Below, one piece after another: positions 24,798 to 33,288 of a stretch of DNA of 64,000 nucleotides. Within the stretch, counting starts at the first letter, position 1, and every line of letters begins with the position of its first letter. The notes beneath the pieces were generated by a model, which saw nothing but the letters and a program-made list of their open reading frames with translations, ran no database searches and was not told where the DNA came from. The stretch comes from Spirochaetia bacterium. Lineage in GTDB: Bacteria > Spirochaetota > Spirochaetia > Treponematales > Rectinemataceae. The stretch lies in assembly GCA_029975555.1 (NCBI GenBank), contig JARKOY010000024.1, positions 62,001 through 126,000 of the forward strand, written 5' to 3'. The position numbers and the translations under genes are program-made.

Positions 24798-25646
24798 TCA
24801 GAGCCGGTGGGTGGCCTGCATCGAACGCTCCAAGGCAGCGATTGCGCCATCGAGATCGTAGGAAATGAGCACGTTGAAGAGAATGTCTATGGCGGTGAGC
24901 TGGCTGATGCGCGAAAGCTCAGCCGCGCTCCGGTATATCCTCTCCACAGGAGGAATTTCGAGGACAAGATCGGAGTACTCGCGCAGGCGATTCTGGCCCG
25001 CCATGGTCATCGCGATGAGAAAGCAGCCCCGCGCCTTCGCCTGCGCCGCGACCTCCACCATCTCCTGGGTCTCGCCCGAATATGAGATGACAAAGGCGAT
25101 GTCGCTCGGCCGCAGAGAACATGCGGCGGTGATTTGGGCGTGGGTGTCGAAAAGATACGAGCTTGGTATGCCGATGCGCGTCAATTTTTGGTGCAAGTCT
25201 GAAGCCACAAGCCCTGAGGCGCCGATGCCGAATATCGCCGTCATGCCAGCCGCCCTGATCCGCTCGGCCGCCTCTTCCACCGCCTTGGGGTCGAGCGTCT
25301 GCGCGAGGGCGCTCATCGTGCGCCGCACGGCCTCGATCATGTCGTGGAGCGCTCGAGCACCGGGCGTCTGAGATTCAAGTTCGAGGTCGGGCAGATATTT
25401 CTCTCCCCAACCTTGATACACGTCCTTCGCGAGCCATATCTTGAAATCGGTGTATTTGCCCGCACCTATGTGCTTGCAGAATCGGACGACGGCGGCAGGG
25501 CTCGTACCTGCCTGACGGGCCAGCTCACTGATGTTGAGGTGCAGAGCCTTCTGGGGAGAGGCCTGGATAAAGGCCGCTATTTTGCGCTCTGCGTCCGCCA
25601 GCTCGGGCATTGCCGCGACAATCGTGTCAATTGCGCCCTGATTCAT
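24798..25646 (-). CDS. murR: MurR/RpiR-family transcriptional regulator
   Basis: A 282-residue regulator. The N-terminal HTH_6 domain spans about residues 1-77 (ISELARQAGTSPAAVVRFCK is its recognition region). A SIS phosphosugar-binding domain spans about 125-255 (IFGIGASGLVASDLHQKL; FVISYSGETQEMVEVA). In the MurR group the SIS domain senses MurNAc-6-phosphate. It starts one base after the murQ stop codon (TGA 25648-25650 on the minus strand), so murQ and murR are coupled. Naming it murR follows from this context; other RpiR proteins are built the same way. Likely sites of action are the two TGAAA-type dyads at 26601-26669. Confidence 0.87.
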   Translation of the reverse strand: MNQGAIDTIVAAMPELADAERKIAAFIQASPQKALHLNISELARQAGTSPAAVVRFCKHIGAGKYTDFKIWLAKDVYQGWGEKYLPDLELESQTPGARALHDMIEAVRRTMSALAQTLDPKAVEEAAERIRAAGMTAIFGIGASGLVASDLHQKLTRIGIPSSYLFDTHAQITAACSLRPSDIAFVISYSGETQEMVEVAAQAKARGCFLIAMTMAGQNRLREYSDLVLEIPPVERIYRSAAELSRISQLTAIDILFNVLISYDLDGAIAALERSMQATHRL

Positions 25647-25647
25647 C

Positions 25648-26583
25648 TCATTTTCCTACCTCATCCGAATGGATGCGCATGGCATCGGAAAGACGTCCCT
25701 GTCCGCGCTGTAAGAGGCTCCAAGCCTCCTCAGCCCCGATGCCGAGCGCGATCATGAGGATGGCGATCTTCGGTTTGCCGCCAGAAGCCAGAAATGCCGC
25801 CTCGGCCTCATCCTTGGAGCACCCCGTGGCCTGCCGGATAAGACGCTTCGAGCGCTCCACGAGCTTGCGGTTGACAGGCATCAGATCCACCATGAGATTG
25901 CCGTACACCTTGCCTATGCGGATCATGCTCGCCGTGGTGAGCATGTTGAGCACAAGCTTCTGCGCCGTGCCCGCCTTCATGCGGGTTGACCCCGTAATCA
26001 CCTCAGGCCCCACTTCGAGGAGTATCCTATGCTGCGCGAGGGCGAAGGTCTTCGATTCTCTGTTACAGGAGATGGCGCCAACCACTGCACCTAAAGCCTT
26101 CGCATACCGCATTGCACCGAGCACGTAGGGCGCAGACCCAGAGGCGGTGATGCCCACGAGCACGTCTTTCGCAGAGAAATCGATGTCGCGGAGGGCCTTT
26201 TCTCCCCCCTCGGGATCGTCCTCGGCCTTTTCGATCGAATTGCGGAGGGCGGCATCCCCTCCTGCGATGAGGCCCACGACCATTCCCTGCGGAACGCCGA
26301 AGGTCGGAGGGCATTCGGAAGCGTCGAGGACGCCAAGCCTTCCGGACGTCCCGGCGCCGATGTACACGAGTCTTCCTCCCGCGTTGAAGGCGCGGACAAT
26401 GTCTTCGACGAGGGCGGCGATGCTCGGCAGCGCCTTTTCCACCGCAAAAGGCACACCCTTGTCTTCTTCATTGATGATGCGCAAAATCTCAATCACCGGG
26501 AGGGCGTCGATATTCGCAGAGCGCGCATTGCGCGATTCCGTGGTCGCGTGCTCCAGGTAATCATCGATCGAATGAATGTCCAT
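25648..26583 (-). CDS. murQ: N-acetylmuramic acid 6-phosphate etherase
   Basis: A 311-residue SIS-fold lyase that splits the D-lactyl ether of MurNAc-6P to give GlcNAc-6P and lactate. YIGAGTSGRLGVLDASECPP contains the phosphosugar site and the catalytic Glu of DASEC; GITASGSAPYVLGA and ITGSTRMKAGTAQK are further family signatures. The C-terminal UBA-like helical bundle is present. Of the possible starts, ATG 26583 has AAGGA six bases upstream and begins with normal MurQ sequence (MDIHSIDDYLEHATTESRN). Divergent from the ABC importer across 190 bases holding two putative operators; murR follows. Confidence 0.95.
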   Translation of the reverse strand: MDIHSIDDYLEHATTESRNARSANIDALPVIEILRIINEEDKGVPFAVEKALPSIAALVEDIVRAFNAGGRLVYIGAGTSGRLGVLDASECPPTFGVPQGMVVGLIAGGDAALRNSIEKAEDDPEGGEKALRDIDFSAKDVLVGITASGSAPYVLGAMRYAKALGAVVGAISCNRESKTFALAQHRILLEVGPEVITGSTRMKAGTAQKLVLNMLTTASMIRIGKVYGNLMVDLMPVNRKLVERSKRLIRQATGCSKDEAEAAFLASGGKPKIAILMIALGIGAEEAWSLLQRGQGRLSDAMRIHSDEVGK

Positions 26584-26600
26584 GGGGGGTCCTTTCCTTA

Positions 26601-26615
26601 TGAAATTATTTTTCA
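26601..26615. promoter_or_regulatory. putative MurR operator 1 (TGAAA-N5-TTTCA)
   Basis: TGAAATTATTTTTCA, perfect 5-bp arms around five bases, 18 bases upstream of the murQ start codon. It is matched by operator 2 in inverted orientation (13 of 14 bases). Binding by the adjacent RpiR-type regulator is inference. Confidence 0.55.
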
Positions 26616-26654
26616 CACTTTTCGGAGAATTGCAAGCAGACCTTCCCCAAAAAT

Positions 26655-26669
26655 CGAAAAATTATTTCA
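26655..26669. promoter_or_regulatory. putative MurR operator 2
   Basis: CGAAAAATTATTTCA, arms GAAA/TTTC, centred 54 bp from operator 1 and ending nine bases before the -35 box of the importer promoter. The paired arrangement could support looping or joint control of both divergent units. Confidence 0.55.
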
Positions 26670-26677
26670 ATTTTAGA

Positions 26678-26706
26678 TTGACAACGGCAAAAAATCTCAC
26701 AATACT
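26678..26706 (+). promoter_or_regulatory. promoter of the ABC importer operon
   Basis: A consensus TTGACA (26678-26683), a 17-bp spacer and AATACT (26701-26706). The leader is about 60 bases and includes AAGGAGG (26761-26767) before ATG 26774. Confidence 0.6.
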
Positions 26707-26773
26707 GATAAAAAACCAAGGGGGCCACATATCACTGAAGATGTACCCTCATATCCTCACAAGGAGGCAGGCA

Positions 26774-28018
26774 ATGATGAAGAAACTCGCAATCGTAGTG
26801 CTGCTCGCGGCAATCCTGTTCCCCCTCTGTGCTCAGCAGAAAACGGTGAGCATCTGGGGCTGGCGGGCGCAAGATGTCGATGTATGGAAAGGAGTTGAAT
26901 CGGCACTCAGAGCAAAGGGTGAGCAGATCACCATCAAATATGAAGTGTTCCCGCCTACGGAATACGATTCAAAATTATTGGTGTCTCTTCAGGGAGGCGT
27001 GGGTCCGGATATTATGTATACCCGGCGACTTCCTGGCGCACGCACCCAGGCACTGCTCGACAATGGGTATCTCACCCCGCTCAATGGACTCGTGGATCTT
27101 TCCAACTTCGATGCCGTCTCTCTCAGCTTTATTAGCGCAAATAGCAAGGTTTGGGGCGTTCCCTTTGCGAACCAAATCATCGGTATCTTCTACAATAAGA
27201 CCATCTTCGACAAATATAAGCTCAAAGAGCCTCAGACCTGGGACGAGCTCGTCCAGATAGCAGAGACACTCAAGAAAAACGGCGTGACGCCCTTCTTCGT
27301 CTCGGGCAAAGAGGCGTGGACGCTCGCCATGCAGAACGCGATGGTGGGGGTGAGCTATCCCGGCGATGCGTGGATCGGTAAACTCGCGGCCGGCAAGGCC
27401 AAATTCACCGACCCCGAATATGTCGGTATGCTCAAGGACCTCAACGCTCTGAAGAAGTACTACCAGAAAGACTTCATGGCCAACACCACCGCGGAACAGG
27501 ACGTCGCCTTTGCCATGGAGCAAGTGGCCATGGTCTTCTACGGTGTGTGGGGCAATACAAACTGGCTCAAGACCAACCCAGATTTTAAGTTTGATTATTT
27601 CCCCATTCCGCCGAAAGATAAGAGTGTTCCCGCAAGGGCGTATACCTATATGGACGGTGCCTACGGCCTCAATAACGTCTCAAAGAACAAAGATGCCGCA
27701 CTTAAAGTGTTGAACTACACTGGTACAAAGGCTTATGGCGAGCTGTTCTCCTCCATTACCGGCGAGATTACGGCACTGAAAGGCGTGACCATGCCTGCAT
27801 CGAAGCCAATCCTCGTAAAGTGTTACGATAAAATGGTCAACATCGCCGCGACCAACCGTTATTGGGTCGGCTCTCCTTTTGATGCCGGAACGCCGAGCGT
27901 CTACAACATCTTGCAGGAGGATATGCAGACAATGTACCTCGATCAGACGACTCCTGAAGCTCTGGCGAAAAAGCTGCAGGACGGCATCTCTACATGGTTC
28001 CCCGCTTTCAAAAAATAG
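26774..28018 (+). CDS. ABC sugar transporter substrate-binding protein
   Basis: A 414-residue family-1 extracellular solute-binding protein. The first 20 residues are a Sec signal peptide (KKLAIVVLLAAILFPLCAQQ). The Cys at its end might be a relaxed spirochaetal lipobox, but the -3 to -1 residues FPL are poor for one, so signal peptidase I cleavage after CA is also possible. GVGPDIMYTRRLPGARTQALLD, WGVPFANQIIGIFYN and the C-terminal KLQDGISTWF region are typical of carbohydrate-binding members. ATG 26774 has AAGGAGG seven bases upstream; an open frame upstream is not coding. First gene of a three-gene importer; neighbours suggest a MurNAc-containing ligand. Hairpins follow before the permease genes. 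Confidence 0.9.
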   Translation: MMKKLAIVVLLAAILFPLCAQQKTVSIWGWRAQDVDVWKGVESALRAKGEQITIKYEVFPPTEYDSKLLVSLQGGVGPDIMYTRRLPGARTQALLDNGYLTPLNGLVDLSNFDAVSLSFISANSKVWGVPFANQIIGIFYNKTIFDKYKLKEPQTWDELVQIAETLKKNGVTPFFVSGKEAWTLAMQNAMVGVSYPGDAWIGKLAAGKAKFTDPEYVGMLKDLNALKKYYQKDFMANTTAEQDVAFAMEQVAMVFYGVWGNTNWLKTNPDFKFDYFPIPPKDKSVPARAYTYMDGAYGLNNVSKNKDAALKVLNYTGTKAYGELFSSITGEITALKGVTMPASKPILVKCYDKMVNIAATNRYWVGSPFDAGTPSVYNILQEDMQTMYLDQTTPEALAKKLQDGISTWFPAFKK

Positions 28019-28029
28019 GGGGCTTTCAC

Positions 28030-28057
28030 ACGCGTCCTACAACTCCAATGGACGCGT
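28030..28057 (+). other. intra-operon hairpin 1
   Basis: ACGCGTCC (28030-28037) and GGACGCGT (28050-28057), a perfect 8-bp stem with a 12-base loop, 11 bases after the binding-protein stop. Such hairpins often stabilise the upstream message so that the binding protein exceeds the permeases. Confidence 0.55.
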
Positions 28058-28071
28058 AAAACATGTGCTCG

Positions 28072-28105
28072 CGCCGCGGTCCGATACGCTTGTCGTGCCG
28101 CGGCG
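28072..28105 (+). other. intra-operon hairpin 2
   Basis: CGCCGCGG (28072-28079) and CCGCGGCG (28098-28105), a perfect 8-bp GC stem with an 18-base loop, second of two in the 120-base gap between binding-protein and permease genes. No T-run follows either. Confidence 0.55.
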
Positions 28106-28138
28106 TTACACAACAATATACATGACAGTGAGGACATT

Positions 28139-29038
28139 GTGCGGAAATATTCATTTCTGTGGATGCTCTTCCCAGCATTGCTCTTATATACGGTCTTCAT
28201 CGCGTACCCATTCTTTTCGAGTCTCGGCCTCAGTTTTTTCGACTGGCCTGGCATTGGCCCCAAAAAATTCATCGGCCTTGCGAACTACAAAAACATACTC
28301 TCTGGGTTCATGGCATCTGAATTTTACCGCGCACTGTGGCACAACATCGTCTTCTTCATTTGGTCCCTCATCTTATCGGTAGTCCCCGGTCTCTTCTTCG
28401 CGTTCCTGCTCGCCGCGGACATCAAAGGGACCAAATGGCTCAAGATAATCTTTTTCTTCCCAAATACACTTGCGATTGTCGTCGTCGGATTTCTGTGGGG
28501 GCTTCTTCTCAATCCTCAATGGGGATTAGTCAATCAGCTTTTCCGTGTACTGGGCCTCGGATTTCTCGCCAAGCCATGGCTCGGCGACACAAAGACGGCG
28601 CTGCCGACGATTATTTTTGTGACGGCATGGCGTGGCCTTGGGTTTTACATACTCGTATACCTCGCCGCCATCATCGGTGTAGACCGCGAAATGACGGAAG
28701 CAGCGCGCATTGACGGGGCAACAGAACTACAGATCGCCGGCCGCATTATTCTGCCGCATCTCTACCCGATCATCGCAACCACCGCAATGCTCAAATTCAT
28801 ATGGACCTTCAACATATTCGACATTGTGTACGCCATGGAAGGCACGCAGGGCGGACCAGCAGGCTCCACCGATGTGCTTGGCACGTTGTTCTACCGGATC
28901 GCCTTTGGCGGGCTTGGCTCGAGCCAGGTCGGCATGGGCCTCGGTGCGACTGTGGTCACGCTCATATTCCTCGTCGTGTTCCCTGTGTCGATATTCTATG
29001 TCTTTATTGTTGAAAGACGGGTGGAAAGGGGCGAGTGA
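28139..29038 (+). CDS. ABC sugar transporter permease (MalF-like)
   Basis: A 299-residue inner-membrane permease with six predicted helices. The cytoplasmic EAA loop EAARIDGATELQIAGRIILP, which docks the ATPase, is intact. The start is GTG 28139 with AGGA four bases upstream. The next permease gene begins inside or at its stop codon (GTGATG), so the two are translationally coupled. Confidence 0.92.
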   Translation: MRKYSFLWMLFPALLLYTVFIAYPFFSSLGLSFFDWPGIGPKKFIGLANYKNILSGFMASEFYRALWHNIVFFIWSLILSVVPGLFFAFLLAADIKGTKWLKIIFFFPNTLAIVVVGFLWGLLLNPQWGLVNQLFRVLGLGFLAKPWLGDTKTALPTIIFVTAWRGLGFYILVYLAAIIGVDREMTEAARIDGATELQIAGRIILPHLYPIIATTAMLKFIWTFNIFDIVYAMEGTQGGPAGSTDVLGTLFYRIAFGGLGSSQVGMGLGATVVTLIFLVVFPVSIFYVFIVERRVERGE

Positions 29039-29865
29039 TGTTCAGACTGAATCGTTTCCAGAAAGTGATCGTGTGGGCTTTCCTCCTTCTCCTCGCCTTC
29101 GTGAATCTCTACCCGATCGGGATCATGATCTTGTCGAGCTTCAAGTCCACGCGTGAAATATTTTTGAAGCCCTTCAATCTGCCGGCCGTATGGAGGTGGC
29201 AGAATTATGTGTCCGCATGGCAGCGCGCAGACTTCGCGACATACTTCAAGAATTCGATCCTGGTGACGGCTGTCTCGATCGCATCCATACTCCTCGTCTC
29301 TTCGATGGCGGCCTACGTCATCGCGCGCTTCGATTTTAAGTTCAAGCGCAGTATATACCTCTATATGCTCGCAGGGCTCGCACTCCCCACAAGGCTCGCG
29401 ATCATCCCTATTTTCCTCATAATGCGCAATCTGCACCTGCTCGACAAACTTTCGGGACTCGTCATTGTGTATACTGCAGGAGGGATCGCCTTTTCTGTTT
29501 TTCTCCTTGTGAATTTCTTCAAGAAATTACCGCACGACATTGAAGACTCTGCCCAAATAGACGGGGCTGGCCCTTTCCGCATCTACTGGCAGATCGACCT
29601 GCCTTTACTGAAGCCCGCCCTGGTCACGGTGGCCATGTTCAACTTCATCGACGTATGGAACGACTTCTTCTTCCCCCTCATCCTTCTAAGTTCCAAAGTC
29701 AAAAAAACCATTCCTCTCGGACTGCAGGCTTTCTTCGGAGAGTACACGATCGAGTGGGATATCCTCTTCGCTGCCCTGAACATCTCGGTCTTACCGGTAT
29801 TGATACTATTCCTGATCCTCTCTAAGCAATTCATTGCGGGGATGACTGAAGGAGCGCTGAAATAG
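29038..29865 (+). CDS. ABC sugar transporter permease (MalG-like)
   Basis: A 275-residue permease, six helices, with the EAA-type loop EDSAQIDGAGPFRIYWQIDL. ATG 29038 shares one base with the previous stop (TGATG) and has AAGGGG six bases upstream; a GTG at 29035 is an alternative. No ATP-binding subunit follows: the next gene is convergent after three bases. The importer therefore must use an ATPase encoded elsewhere, as is common for CUT1 sugar systems sharing an MsmX/UgpC-type ATPase. Confidence 0.92.
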   Translation: MFRLNRFQKVIVWAFLLLLAFVNLYPIGIMILSSFKSTREIFLKPFNLPAVWRWQNYVSAWQRADFATYFKNSILVTAVSIASILLVSSMAAYVIARFDFKFKRSIYLYMLAGLALPTRLAIIPIFLIMRNLHLLDKLSGLVIVYTAGGIAFSVFLLVNFFKKLPHDIEDSAQIDGAGPFRIYWQIDLPLLKPALVTVAMFNFIDVWNDFFFPLILLSSKVKKTIPLGLQAFFGEYTIEWDILFAALNISVLPVLILFLILSKQFIAGMTEGALK

Positions 29866-29868
29866 AAG

Positions 29869-31053
29869 TTACCGCCCAGTTGCGCCGTACAAGAGATACC
29901 GTGCTCTCCGGGCAAGGAACTTCTCCTCTCCTTGATGAGCAAAAGCTAGACACTCATCGAGAGAAGCGCCGCGCTCGATCATGGATCGAAGCCCCGTCCC
30001 TCCCGCAAGTTTGTCGAAAAAAGTAAGCGCAGGGTTATCCCAGTCTTCGCGCCAGACAAACTCGCGAGGATACATGCGGTGAATGGTGTGAATGATCGCG
30101 ATCCCGGTATCGAGCGAACGCAGCGATTGGCGATCGATCAGAGAGACGAGGACACCTTCGCAGAGCTTGCCTTGGTGTTTGGAGGCGGTTGGGGTAAAGA
30201 ATATCGACGAGAAGACGAGCCCCGGCAACTCAAGCAAAGAAAGCTGTTCACGCAGCGCTTCTCCATCGATAAATGGGGCGCCGATGATTTCGAAGGGGCG
30301 CGCGGTGCCGCGGCCTTCGGAAAGCCATGTGCCTTCGACGAGGCAGGTCCCGGGATACAGCTCGGCGCAGACAAGAGTCGGTAGATTAGGAGACGGCAGA
30401 GGCCAAGGGAGGCCAGTCTCCTCCCATGGCTGGCGTGCGTCCCATCCGGACAAGGGAATGACTTCGAGATTGGAGTTTGGAAAATATTCACCCTTGAGGT
30501 ACATGGCAAACTCGCCTATGGTCATCCCATAGCGAGGTGGCAGGCCATACCCTCCGACAAAGCTCTCGAATTCCCTGAGGATGGGAGAACCCTCGACTTT
30601 GATACCGCCGATGGGATTGGGCCTGTCGAGCACAATGACGGGTGTTCCGACTTTTTCACACACTTCCATGATATACGCCAGAGTATAAAGGTAGGTATAA
30701 TAGCGGCACCCTACGTCCTGCATGTCGAACACGACGGCATCGAGGGACTCGAGCATCCAAGGCTCTGGCTTGAGGCGTTTGCCGTAGAGAGAATATGCGG
30801 GTATGCCCTTAAAATGTTCATCCTCCAGCTGCACCGCATCCTGCGCGGCACCCCGGAATCCGTGCTCCGGGCCAAAAAAACAGACAGGCTTAAGTCCTGC
30901 ATCCATAAAGGCTTTCCATGCCGGAACACCCCCTGCCGTGATCGCGGCAGGATTCGTCGCTAGACCGTAGCGTCCGTTCTGTCTCGTTGGATCACTCAGA
31001 AAACGTTCAAGACCGATTACGACTGAATTCTGCCGGTGATTTTTCTGATTCAT
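29869..31053 (-). CDS. namZ: NamZ-type exo-beta-N-acetylmuramidase (DUF1343)
   Basis: A 394-residue protein that is almost entirely the DUF1343 fold: FFGPEHGFRG, VFDMQDVGCRYYTYLYTL, IVLDRPNPIGG, WPLPSPNLPTL and CLVEGTWLSEGRGTARPFE are visible family blocks. Characterised members (YbbC/NamZ of Bacillus subtilis and of Tannerella) release MurNAc from the non-reducing end of peptidoglycan fragments. Unlike the secreted Bacillus enzyme this protein has no signal peptide: the fold begins right after a polar 12-residue start. It is therefore predicted to act in the cytosol on imported MurNAc-GlcNAc. It ends three bases from the importer genes and diverges from the AmiE-like gene. Confidence 0.85.
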   Translation of the reverse strand: MNQKNHRQNSVVIGLERFLSDPTRQNGRYGLATNPAAITAGGVPAWKAFMDAGLKPVCFFGPEHGFRGAAQDAVQLEDEHFKGIPAYSLYGKRLKPEPWMLESLDAVVFDMQDVGCRYYTYLYTLAYIMEVCEKVGTPVIVLDRPNPIGGIKVEGSPILREFESFVGGYGLPPRYGMTIGEFAMYLKGEYFPNSNLEVIPLSGWDARQPWEETGLPWPLPSPNLPTLVCAELYPGTCLVEGTWLSEGRGTARPFEIIGAPFIDGEALREQLSLLELPGLVFSSIFFTPTASKHQGKLCEGVLVSLIDRQSLRSLDTGIAIIHTIHRMYPREFVWREDWDNPALTFFDKLAGGTGLRSMIERGASLDECLAFAHQGEEKFLARRARYLLYGATGR

Positions 31054-31059
31054 GATAAT

Positions 31060-31088
31060 ATGATATCATTCGACCATATGACAAACAA
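31060..31088 (-). promoter_or_regulatory. promoter of namZ, overlapping that of the divergent hydrolase gene
   Basis: Minus strand: TTGTTT (31083-31088), a 17-bp spacer and TATCAT (31060-31065), ending six bases before ATG 31053. The 10-bp palindrome ATGATATCAT (31060-31069) supplies a TATCAT -10 to both strands; the plus-strand copy (31064-31069) ends eight bases before ATG 31078. Confidence 0.45.
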
Positions 31089-32232
31089 GAACAATGATAT
31101 CCAAAACGAAAGCGACGTGGTTTCCGAAGATTCCTTGAAATTTCTCCTGGAAGAGGCCGTTGCACGGAACCTCTGTACGGGTGCCGCCGCCGCTGTTGGA
31201 CTTGAAGGAAAAACACTCTGGTCATATTGCGTCGGGACGACGGGTACGAAGAAAAAAGATGCTCAAGACGAAGTATGGCCAGCCACAATTACACCAGACA
31301 CACGCTTCGATGTGGCCTCGCTCACAAAGCCCCTGTCGACGGCCCTGCTCACGTTGAAGGCATTCCAAGCAGGAGCGCTCAAACTCGACGATCCTGTCGA
31401 GAAGTTCTTGCCAGAGATGCATTGGAAAGCTAGAACAATTCCTCTGATCGCCCTGCTCACCCACACGGGAGGCATGCCCGCAATCCCTGCGTTACACCGC
31501 TATTTTCCTAACCCGACACATCTCGATCGAAATGTTGCGCTATCGAAGCTCCTCTCAATAGAACCGGAATCGCCTATTGGACAGCGGGTCCAGTATTCAT
31601 GCACGGGGTACATGCTCGTGGGCGCAATCCTCGAACGGATCTCCGGCATGCTTGTCGGCGAACTCTTCCGACAAGAAATCGCCGAACCACTCAATTTGCC
31701 GCACGCTACGTTTGCACAACGCATCTCTGACACGGGAGAACCGGCACCTTTGAAAGACACTGTCGAAACCGAGTTTTGTCCCTGGAGACGGAAACGGGTG
31801 CACGGCCAGGTCCACGATGAAAGCGCCTACTGCCTGGGAGGTCATTCCGGCAATGCAGGGCTTTTTCTCTCCCTGAAAGACGCCATGATCCTCGGCAACT
31901 TCATCTTACAGGAAGGTGCGCATGACGGAAAGCAAGTGCTCAAGCCAGAAATAAGCAGGTTATTGCAGCATGAATTCACTTTTGGGTTAGAAGAGAGACG
32001 CACTATAGGATTCAAACTCCACGATGACGATACTGCGGACGGCCCCTTGTGGCCAGCACAGGCATTCGGACATACCGGTTTTACCGGCACGAGCATTTTT
32101 TTTGAACCACAGCGGCACCTCGTCGCGATCCTATTCACCAATAGAGTCTACTACGGACGGGACGAAACAGCGGATGCCATTGTCGCGCTCCGCAAAGCAT
32201 TCCACACAAAGGTCTGGCGTTTATTCTCTTGA
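31078..32232 (+). CDS. AmiE-like serine hydrolase (class C beta-lactamase family)
   Basis: A 384-residue penicillin-binding-protein-like hydrolase. The catalytic SxxK is SLTK (Ser81, Lys84) and the KTG-equivalent is HTG (332-334). The second motif reads Tyr173-Ser-Cys175 where YSN or YSD is usual, a notable change. GGHSGNAGLFLSLKD matches the AmiE/YbbE group, which in Bacillus trims stem peptides from MurNAc. No signal peptide is seen, so a cytosolic peptide-releasing role on imported muropeptides is inferred; an esterase or beta-lactamase activity is possible. ATG 31078 gives a start clear of namZ; ATG 31060 and 31036 are in frame but 31036 would overlap namZ. Its N-terminal part is clearly more AT-rich than neighbouring genes. 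Confidence 0.8.
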   Translation: MTNKNNDIQNESDVVSEDSLKFLLEEAVARNLCTGAAAAVGLEGKTLWSYCVGTTGTKKKDAQDEVWPATITPDTRFDVASLTKPLSTALLTLKAFQAGALKLDDPVEKFLPEMHWKARTIPLIALLTHTGGMPAIPALHRYFPNPTHLDRNVALSKLLSIEPESPIGQRVQYSCTGYMLVGAILERISGMLVGELFRQEIAEPLNLPHATFAQRISDTGEPAPLKDTVETEFCPWRRKRVHGQVHDESAYCLGGHSGNAGLFLSLKDAMILGNFILQEGAHDGKQVLKPEISRLLQHEFTFGLEERRTIGFKLHDDDTADGPLWPAQAFGHTGFTGTSIFFEPQRHLVAILFTNRVYYGRDETADAIVALRKAFHTKVWRLFS

Positions 32233-32278: not shown

Positions 32279-32340
32279 GGGAAACGAGTACGTCTTTGAA
32301 TCGGACTACGCATAACCTGTAAAAATTGCCAGGAGCCCCC

Positions 32341-33288
32341 ATGAACCAACAGTGGATTTTTGGCATCGATGGCGGTGGAACGTCGACTCGGCTGAGGGTC
32401 GAAAGTCTCGAGAGGGAACTTCTCTATCAGGCGGAGGGGCCGAGCCTCAACCCGCGATCGGTGGGCTGGGAGGGGTCCCGCACGACGCTCGAGGGGCTCT
32501 TCTCCGCGATGTACGCGACGACTGGCCTTGGTCCTGACGGCTGCGTTGCAGGGTTCGCCGGCGTGGCGGGCATCGACAGAAGTGAAGACACCGGGATCAT
32601 GCGCAGCATCATCAGCGATGCCGCCGACCTTGGCATTGACACCACCCTGGAAGTGCGGAATGACTCGATTCCGGCGCTCGCGGGCGCGTTCGGCGAGCTG
32701 CGCGGCATTCTGCTCATCGCGGGGACAGGCTCCATCGCGGTGGGCTCCGACGGGGCTGGCCGTATTGTACGCTCCGGGGGTTGGGGGCACATTCTCGGCG
32801 ACGAAGGGTCAGCGTACTGGGTCGGGCTGAGAGCCCTCAACGCGGCCACCCGATTCCACGACAGACGAAGCCCGCAGACCGACCTCTTGGGGAGGGCGCT
32901 GGCGTATTTCGGCGAAAAAGAGCCTTTTTCGCTCATCCCCGCGGTATACGAGAATTTCGACAAGGCAAAGGTGGCGGCGTTTGCGCGCATTGTGGCAGAA
33001 GAGCGCGATCGGGGCGACGAGGTCGCGCAGCAGATTTTTAAGGACGCCGCAGAGGAGCTTGCGCTGCTCGCCATCTCCATCGCGACCCGGCTCGGCGAAG
33101 CGCAGTCGGGTGGAAAAATCGCCTTCTCGGGTGGTTTTATCACCAACAACGAGCGCTTGTGGCACGACACCGAGGCGCGCATTCTCTCGGCGCTGCCGCG
33201 CCACCGGATCATCTCGCCTCAGGCGGATGCCGTGAGCGGGGCCTGTCTGCTCGCCTTGACCGCCGTAGGGCAGAGCAGCCTCGGATAG
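32341..33288 (+). CDS. murK: BadF/BadG-family N-acetylhexosamine kinase (MurNAc/GlcNAc kinase)
   Basis: A 315-residue ASKHA-fold kinase. Phosphate loop 1 is FGIDGGGTSTRLRV, loop 2 LLIAGTGSIAVG, and GGWGHILGDEGSAYWVG is the family signature. The BadF/BadG/BcrA/BcrD family includes eukaryotic GlcNAc kinase and clostridial MurK, which phosphorylates both MurNAc and GlcNAc. Because sugar entering by the ABC importer is unphosphorylated, a kinase of this type is what MurQ needs to receive MurNAc-6P. The symbol is therefore assigned from context, and GlcNAc- or glucosamine-specific activity is possible. ATG 32341 has AGGAG five bases upstream. It ends five bases from a convergent permease gene. Confidence 0.78.
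   Translation: MNQQWIFGIDGGGTSTRLRVESLERELLYQAEGPSLNPRSVGWEGSRTTLEGLFSAMYATTGLGPDGCVAGFAGVAGIDRSEDTGIMRSIISDAADLGIDTTLEVRNDSIPALAGAFGELRGILLIAGTGSIAVGSDGAGRIVRSGGWGHILGDEGSAYWVGLRALNAATRFHDRRSPQTDLLGRALAYFGEKEPFSLIPAVYENFDKAKVAAFARIVAEERDRGDEVAQQIFKDAAEELALLAISIATRLGEAQSGGKIAFSGGFITNNERLWHDTEARILSALPRHRIISPQADAVSGACLLALTAVGQSSLG

Follow-up and report, generated by a model that had tools for sequence, protein, structure and literature searches.

Conserved, paired candidate operators for a MurR-like regulator of the RpiR family in a MurNAc gene cluster of a spirochaete

Background

In a stretch of 64,000 nucleotides from a Spirochaetia bacterium of the Rectinemataceae (the whole stretch is called the window here), the gap between murQ and a divergent ABC importer contains two dyads of the form TGAAA-N5-TTTCA. 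The question raised by this locus is whether the dyads are operators by which the regulator encoded next to murQ controls catabolism and uptake together, as a first-pass annotation had proposed. Among the matches listed from the open-licence literature, none deals with murQ regulation in spirochaetes or with helical spacing of RpiR operators. Rectinema cohabitans is reported to live on bacterial necromass (PMC6052044, seen in excerpt); neither 'peptidoglycan' nor 'muram' occurs in the main text of that paper.

Organization of the gene cluster

The following genes of the window are considered:

24798..25646, minus strand: RpiR-family regulator (HTH_6 and SIS domains), presumed binder of the dyads, 1 bp after murQ
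25648..26583, minus strand: murQ, N-acetylmuramic acid 6-phosphate etherase (NCBIfam TIGR00274, 380.7 bits, cut-off 302)
26774..28018, plus strand: ABC importer sugar-binding protein (Pfam SBP_bac_1, 101.2 bits)
28139..29038, plus strand: ABC importer permease 1 (Pfam BPD_transp_1, 49.3 bits)
29035..29865, plus strand: ABC importer permease 2 (Pfam BPD_transp_1, 63.5 bits)
29869..31053, minus strand: NamZ-type exo-beta-N-acetylmuramidase, pathway partner (Pfam NamZ_N 232.1 bits, NamZ_C 166.9 bits)
31036..32232, plus strand: beta-lactamase-fold serine hydrolase, pathway partner (Pfam PF00144, 164.5 bits)
32326..33288, plus strand: BadF-type amino-sugar kinase (Pfam PF01869, 137.2 bits)

The MurQ protein shares 94% identity with its counterpart in a Spirochaetaceae MAG and 86% with that of Rectinema subterraneum, and the window is assigned to the genus Rectinema. 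The murQ gene starts with the ATG at 26583, preceded by AAGGAAAGGA. Since rpiR starts 1 bp past the end of murQ, the two genes form a probable operon, such that the dyad pair would control the regulator itself as well.

Together with MurQ, the neighbouring genes make up a coherent route from MurNAc release through ABC uptake and phosphorylation to the etherase reaction. The importer probably carries MurNAc, judging from its neighbours (NamZ, kinase, MurQ). The BadF-type kinase reaches 74.5 bits against NCBIfam NagK_SO3507, under the cut-off of 370, and is probably a MurNAc/GlcNAc kinase, a guess from its family and neighbours; an AmiE-like role of the serine hydrolase is likewise guessed. We take ybbC of Bacillus subtilis to be NamZ. 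The listed frames of the NamZ-type gene and the hydrolase gene overlap at their 5' ends (window 31036-31053), and the true start of one or both may lie further in. Near the NamZ-type gene, the window scan found no dyad at up to one mismatch.

The adjacent regulator was described as RpiR-type in the first-pass annotation, and both domains score over their cut-offs (PF01418, HTH_6, 61.9 bits; PF01380, SIS, 64.6 bits). It stays far under the cut-off for E. coli-type MurR (NCBIfam NF012026; 106.8 vs 408 bits), so that family membership leaves the effector unsettled. The SIS domain aligns with that of E. coli MurR (7EN5) at 71.5 bits, with ISYSG and RSxxxxxRxxQ in both. Concerning solved structures, the whole regulator is nearest to 8JU9, which is P. 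aeruginosa RccR (PMC12713135, excerpt), to V. vulnificus NanR (4IVN) and to E. coli MurR (7EN5), and its HTH part is nearest to B. subtilis YbbH (2O3F).

The dyad pair and the promoters in the gap

The gap between murQ and the importer measures 190 bp and is AT-rich (39% GC vs 58% for the window). It contains:

26601..26615, no strand: predicted operator A, dyad TGAAATTATTTTTCA, 10/10 to the consensus, at the murQ promoter / 5' leader
26605..26635, minus strand: possible murQ promoter TTGCAA-19-AATAAT, read by eye; weak, with a long spacer and hexamer matches of 4/6 and 5/6
26655..26669, no strand: predicted operator B, dyad CGAAAAATTATTTCA, 9/10 to the consensus, 54 bp from operator A
26678..26706, plus strand: importer promoter TTGACA-17-AATACT, read in five aligned Rectinema loci

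Both 15-bp dyads, 54 bp apart from start to start, lie exactly where the first-pass annotation had placed them, one beside the murQ start and the other just upstream of the importer promoter, which is indeed present; a gap of 8 bp separates operator B from its -35 hexamer. In the five aligned Rectinema loci, both hexamers of this promoter are invariant and the spacer is variable. The -10 of the possible murQ promoter falls, by eye, inside operator A. As had also been noticed, each dyad is nearly the reverse complement of the other (13 of 15 positions agree), because both are near-palindromes.

At up to one mismatch to TGAAA-N5-TTTCA, operators A and B are the sole matches in the 64-kb window. 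This number as such is ordinary, two or more matches being found in 36 of 100 shuffles; the pairing is unusual, as none of 500 dinucleotide shuffles of 26560-26800 yielded an equally good pair.

A GTG start at 26616 would place dyad A inside murQ; this coding reading was rejected, since the ATG at 26583 has a good ribosome site and since the dyads persist where murQ starts elsewhere. No Rfam match, as of an RNA leader, was found in 25500-28200, and a terminator-like match at 26581-26602 was judged to be due to chance.

Conservation among close relatives

MurQ was searched for in 58 genomes ranging from genus to order, the window's own included, and MurQ-like matches were found in 24 of them. 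Three weak matches (G042, G044 and G055; E about 1e-5) were left out, resulting in a set of 20 relatives plus the window, i.e., 21 loci. In 15 of the 20 relatives, murQ is directly followed by rpiR, both genes being on one strand.

The loci were scanned blind over their full length (19-37 kb of the window, plus the stretches of the 20 relatives) for one dyad of at least 9/10 and one of at least 8/10, situated 25-70 bp apart; 18 pairs were returned, and ten shuffles of the whole 21-locus set gave 2, 0, 2 and then seven times 0 pairs. The footprinting upstream of murQ that the first-pass annotation had suggested thus bears out its dyads: a pair is found at the operon start in 14 of the 16 loci, window included, with rpiR directly after murQ. 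The two exceptions are G002, in which operator B alone is clear, and G024, with one clear dyad. None of the five relatives with another gene arrangement holds a pair in the blind scan; three of these have no rpiR match in the stretch (G020, G022, G050), and in the other two rpiR lies upstream of murQ (G025, G043). With at most one mismatch per site and 20-110 bp between sites, 12 pairs occur in the loci of the 20 relatives (296 kb), and each of 20 shuffled sets held at most one. A stricter pair pattern, applied to all 58 genomes, matched at murQ in four, with matches on one strand only in three further genomes (G038, G047, G053), and its reversed control matched none.

Operator A is kept in G004, G006, G007 and G009 and degenerate in G002, and operator B is kept at 9/10 in G002, G004 and G009 and at 8/10 in G006. 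In R. subterraneum (G002, locus L048, position 8075), a TATAAT-like -10 is situated near the place of the degenerate operator A.

The position of the sites follows the operon start. In an array of the order importer-murQ-rpiR in G012, the pair stands before the importer, at a distance of about 4.5 kb from murQ and with an epimerase-like gene (by eye) in between; in G008, it precedes a further gene that comes before murQ; and in G007, both dyads remain before murQ although a non-importer gene adjoins it.

Spacing of the dyads

The 18 blind pairs are spaced by 31, 31, 33, 40, 41, 42 (five times), 53 (three times), 54, 56, 62, 62 and 63 bp, and those of the 16 loci group around 31, 42, 53 and 62 bp, i.e., about 3, 4, 5 and 6 helical turns. 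Among periods of 6-18 bp, 10.51 bp fits the 18 pairs best, and none of 50,000 sets of random spacings (25-70 bp) matched their agreement at 10.5 bp. After we had collapsed the pairs to eight lineage/site groups, 391 of 200,000 random sets agreed as well; an earlier test, with hand-picked sites in 12 hand-drawn groups, had given a period of 10.47 bp and 22 of 200,000. This evidence for phasing is good but not decisive, because the idea followed sight of the numbers and the groups are not fully independent. One genome, G007, is off phase (55.5-56 bp, 5.3 turns). The near-whole-turn spacings suggest an RpiR multimer holding two sites on one face of the DNA.

In the 42-bp class (G011, G012, G019, G023, G027, G030), the arrangement, read by eye, is as follows: one dyad shares a single base with a -35-like hexamer (TTTACA in four genomes, TTTACG in one and TGCACA in one), and after 16-17 bp comes a -10, the last T of which opens the second dyad. 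The promoter recurs in G385, a genome of another family, where the second dyad lies one turn (11 bp) farther along. A further dyad 30-33 bp upstream was noted in G030 (L056, 9437), G385 (L132, 4136), G389 (L134, 5740) and G019 (L061, 7746), with a half of the TGGCACA or TGACACA type in three of the four.

A second importer type and the search for further sites

A second type of ABC importer is preceded by its own dyad pair in G005 (63 bp), G008 (62 bp) and G009 (62 bp; locus L050, 3008 and 3070), and it faces the murQ operon in G005 and G008. In the divergent hydrolase/importer gap of G007 (L046, 6469 and 6500), a pair 31 bp apart was observed.

A search of the window's genome for further sites, also suggested at first pass, came up empty with the strict pair pattern, which matches at no other place. 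Exact single dyads occur at six places, operator A included, and the reversed control at one; the five others were not accepted as operators, because they lie within open frames of at least 150 codons. Likewise, a relaxed pair pattern in the genus (seven places in 6 of 10 genomes) was dropped as uninformative, as its reversed control did as well (nine places in 7 of 10).

When the second importer type was searched for in the window's genome, the best match was the window's own importer (32% identity), followed by the gene for a sugar-binding protein on contig C70 (33% identity). Near the start of the latter gene, a single 9/10 dyad is found (L164, 1445), with no second dyad close by; this gene is a possible further member of the regulon.

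Wider search in the phylum

Extending the search to 392 genomes of the phylum, MurQ was found at 1e-30 in 34, and 31 new loci were read. A close regulator (more than 240 bits) directly follows murQ in three of these, with an upstream pair at 53 bp in G385 and pairs at 32 and 53 bp in G389; the locus of G387 is truncated at the end of its contig. With at most one mismatch per site, G389 is the only one of the 31 loci to hold a pair. The relaxed blind scan returned 13 pairs in 12 of the 31 loci and none in the remaining 19, and ten shuffles returned 1-7.

These 13 pairs are spaced by 32, 32, 32, 33, 34, 34, 36, 36, 40, 47, 53, 53 and 53 bp. They are weakly phased at 10.5 bp (equalled by 1,607 of 50,000 random sets, or 4,669 of 200,000 after collapsing), and their best periods differ from this value. 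All groups together gave 21 of 50,000 and a best period of 10.62 bp. We therefore claim phasing for the close clade and not for more distant loci.

In several of the phylum loci with relaxed pairs, the regulator is more distant or none is nearby, and pairs are thus not confined to a murQ-adjacent regulator there. In G360 (L138, 1061 and 1094), a 10/10 and an 8/10 dyad, separated by 33 bp, lie between an importer-murQ operon and an RpiR gene that is divergent and more distant. Three termite-gut Treponema MAGs (L074, L075, L119) possess a regulator of 241-244 bits after murQ, and one strong and one weaker site 50-51 bp apart, i.e., off phase.

Concerning the recognition helix, AA[VI][VI]RFC[KR] is common to the loci with rpiR after murQ, including the pairless G002 and G024, with the exception of L058 (G012), which reads ASVVRFCKR. 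The regulators of G025 and G043, which have no pairs, read RLCKR there; the divergent regulator of G360, which has one, reads RLANR, and some distant loci carry parts of the motif. The near-invariant helix counts as supporting evidence only.

Interpretation and alternatives

The reading of the first-pass annotation, in which the adjacent RpiR-type regulator controls catabolism and uptake together, remains the best supported: the pairs are conserved and tied to rpiR after murQ, and pairs also stand before the second importer type in three genomes. We consider it quite likely that the dyads are two operators of the murQ-rpiR regulator, with repression by a bridging tetramer that is relieved by a sugar phosphate. 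Site sequences, conservation, the link to an rpiR directly after murQ and near-whole-turn spacing are the observations, from which we infer binding, bridging, effector and repression as follows. Each TGAAA-N5-TTTCA dyad would be read by two HTH domains, and a tetramer joined through its SIS domains would bind both dyads on the same helix face, blocking the murQ promoter at operator A and hindering RNA polymerase at operator B, just upstream of the importer -35. Once a cell-wall sugar has entered and been phosphorylated, the resulting sugar phosphate, probably the MurQ substrate MurNAc-6P, would bind the SIS domain and relieve repression, such that importer, etherase and regulator would rise together.

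Relative to an importer start assumed 7 bp past the -10, the operators are centred at about -51 and -105; such a position, upstream of the importer -35 in both cases, would fit an activator as well. The same regulator might thus repress murQ-rpiR at operator A and activate the importer from operator B, the sugar phosphate favouring the bridging tetramer. A centre near -51 suits activators, AATACT, the importer -10, agrees with TATAAT in just 4 of 6 positions, and S. pneumoniae NanR (SpNanR) is an RpiR activator, for which a bridging tetramer favoured by the effector is proposed, the effector stabilising the tetramer and leaving DNA affinity unchanged (PMC12713135, excerpt). The same excerpt, however, says that all other reported RpiR regulators are repressors, and in the 42-bp class and importer type B, by eye, one operator covers the -10/start region, which is a repressor position. 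On this evidence, activation of the importer seems unlikely.

Very improbable, in our estimation, is that the dyads belong to another regulator, either a global one or an RpiR paralogue, instead of the adjacent gene. TGAAA-N5-TTTCA is admittedly a generic AT-rich palindrome, found exactly at six places in the genome against one for the reversed control, and relaxed pairs exist in some loci without this regulator directly after murQ; in the 21 close loci, however, the pairs are tied to rpiR after murQ and to one type of recognition helix, and in the window's genome the strict pair pattern is unique and the other exact dyads lie within open frames. That the dyads arose by chance in an AT-rich promoter region is hardly credible: A/T tracts make matches to TGAAA and TTTCA easy and two sites per 64 kb are ordinary, but none of the 500 shuffles of the same region held an equal pair, and the reading is contradicted by the conservation of the pair, which is retained across genera.

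As far as sequence comparison can tell, the dyads of the window are real and conserved, and constitute a candidate pair of operators for the MurR-like RpiR regulator of this spirochaete MurNAc cluster. While the kind of system is known, the series of near-whole-turn spacings in the close clade is new. A more far-reaching proposal, which we put forward tentatively and rate somewhat short of even, is that the spacing is kept near a whole number of turns (3, 4, 5 or 6) as the distance shifts from one lineage to the next, with an additional, third site about 3 turns upstream in some of them. Natural variation would then argue for an RpiR tetramer whose flexibly tethered HTH domains let it span short stretches of DNA on one face. 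A single operator code would also mark, in spirochaetes, ABC importers of two types, with MurNAc or sugars containing it as their probable cargo.

The pair offers a concrete candidate operator code for the salvage of cell-wall sugars in Rectinema and related spirochaetes. It marks ABC importers as candidates for MurNAc uptake, and its spacing series constitutes a natural experiment on how RpiR tetramers hold DNA.

Comparison with known systems

The system of the window would work like MurR, yet its regulator is not an E. coli-type MurR by the NCBI cut-off. Like the regulator of the window, E. coli MurR is an RpiR-family protein linked to murQ; it has paired operators at the promoter, as predicted here, and its tetramer is proposed to bridge two sites over the -35 and -10 (PMC12713135, excerpt). 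These sites are reported there to be 17 bp apart and to span 47 bp in all, which implies 15-bp sites at 32 bp from centre to centre, or about 3 turns; in the window's relatives, the distance ranges between 3 and 6 turns. The murR gene of E. coli is transcribed divergently from murQ and the transporter there is the PTS protein MurP, whereas in the window rpiR follows murQ and an ABC importer is divergent. By eye, no TGAAA-N5-TTTCA was seen in the murR-murQ gap of E. coli.

The murQ clusters of E. coli and B. subtilis are described in PMC5061867 (excerpt), with the order murQ-murR-murP-amiE-nagZ-ybbC in the latter. Similar to the window, B. subtilis thus possesses murQ followed by the regulator, with an amidase and ybbC alongside, whereas its importer is of the PTS type and the window encodes an ABC importer and a BadF-type kinase. 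The Tannerella proteins MurK and MurQ are treated in PMC10465942 (excerpt).

Concerning the operator sequence, the window's dyads share the TGAAA or GAAA half-site with those of the NanR proteins of S. pneumoniae (TCTGAAAGTACTTTTAGA; PMC12713135, excerpt) and C. perfringens (GAAAAATATTTTC; PMC4509764, excerpt), RpiR regulators of sialic acid genes. SpNanR has a tetrameric SIS core with separate HTH domains (PMC12713135, excerpt). Despite this similarity, its site has a centre of 4 bp (TGAAA-N4-TTTTA; same excerpt), whereas that of the window's dyads is 5 bp, and SpNanR Arg67 enters the minor groove, whereas the regulator of the window would, according to a hand alignment, have Thr at this position.
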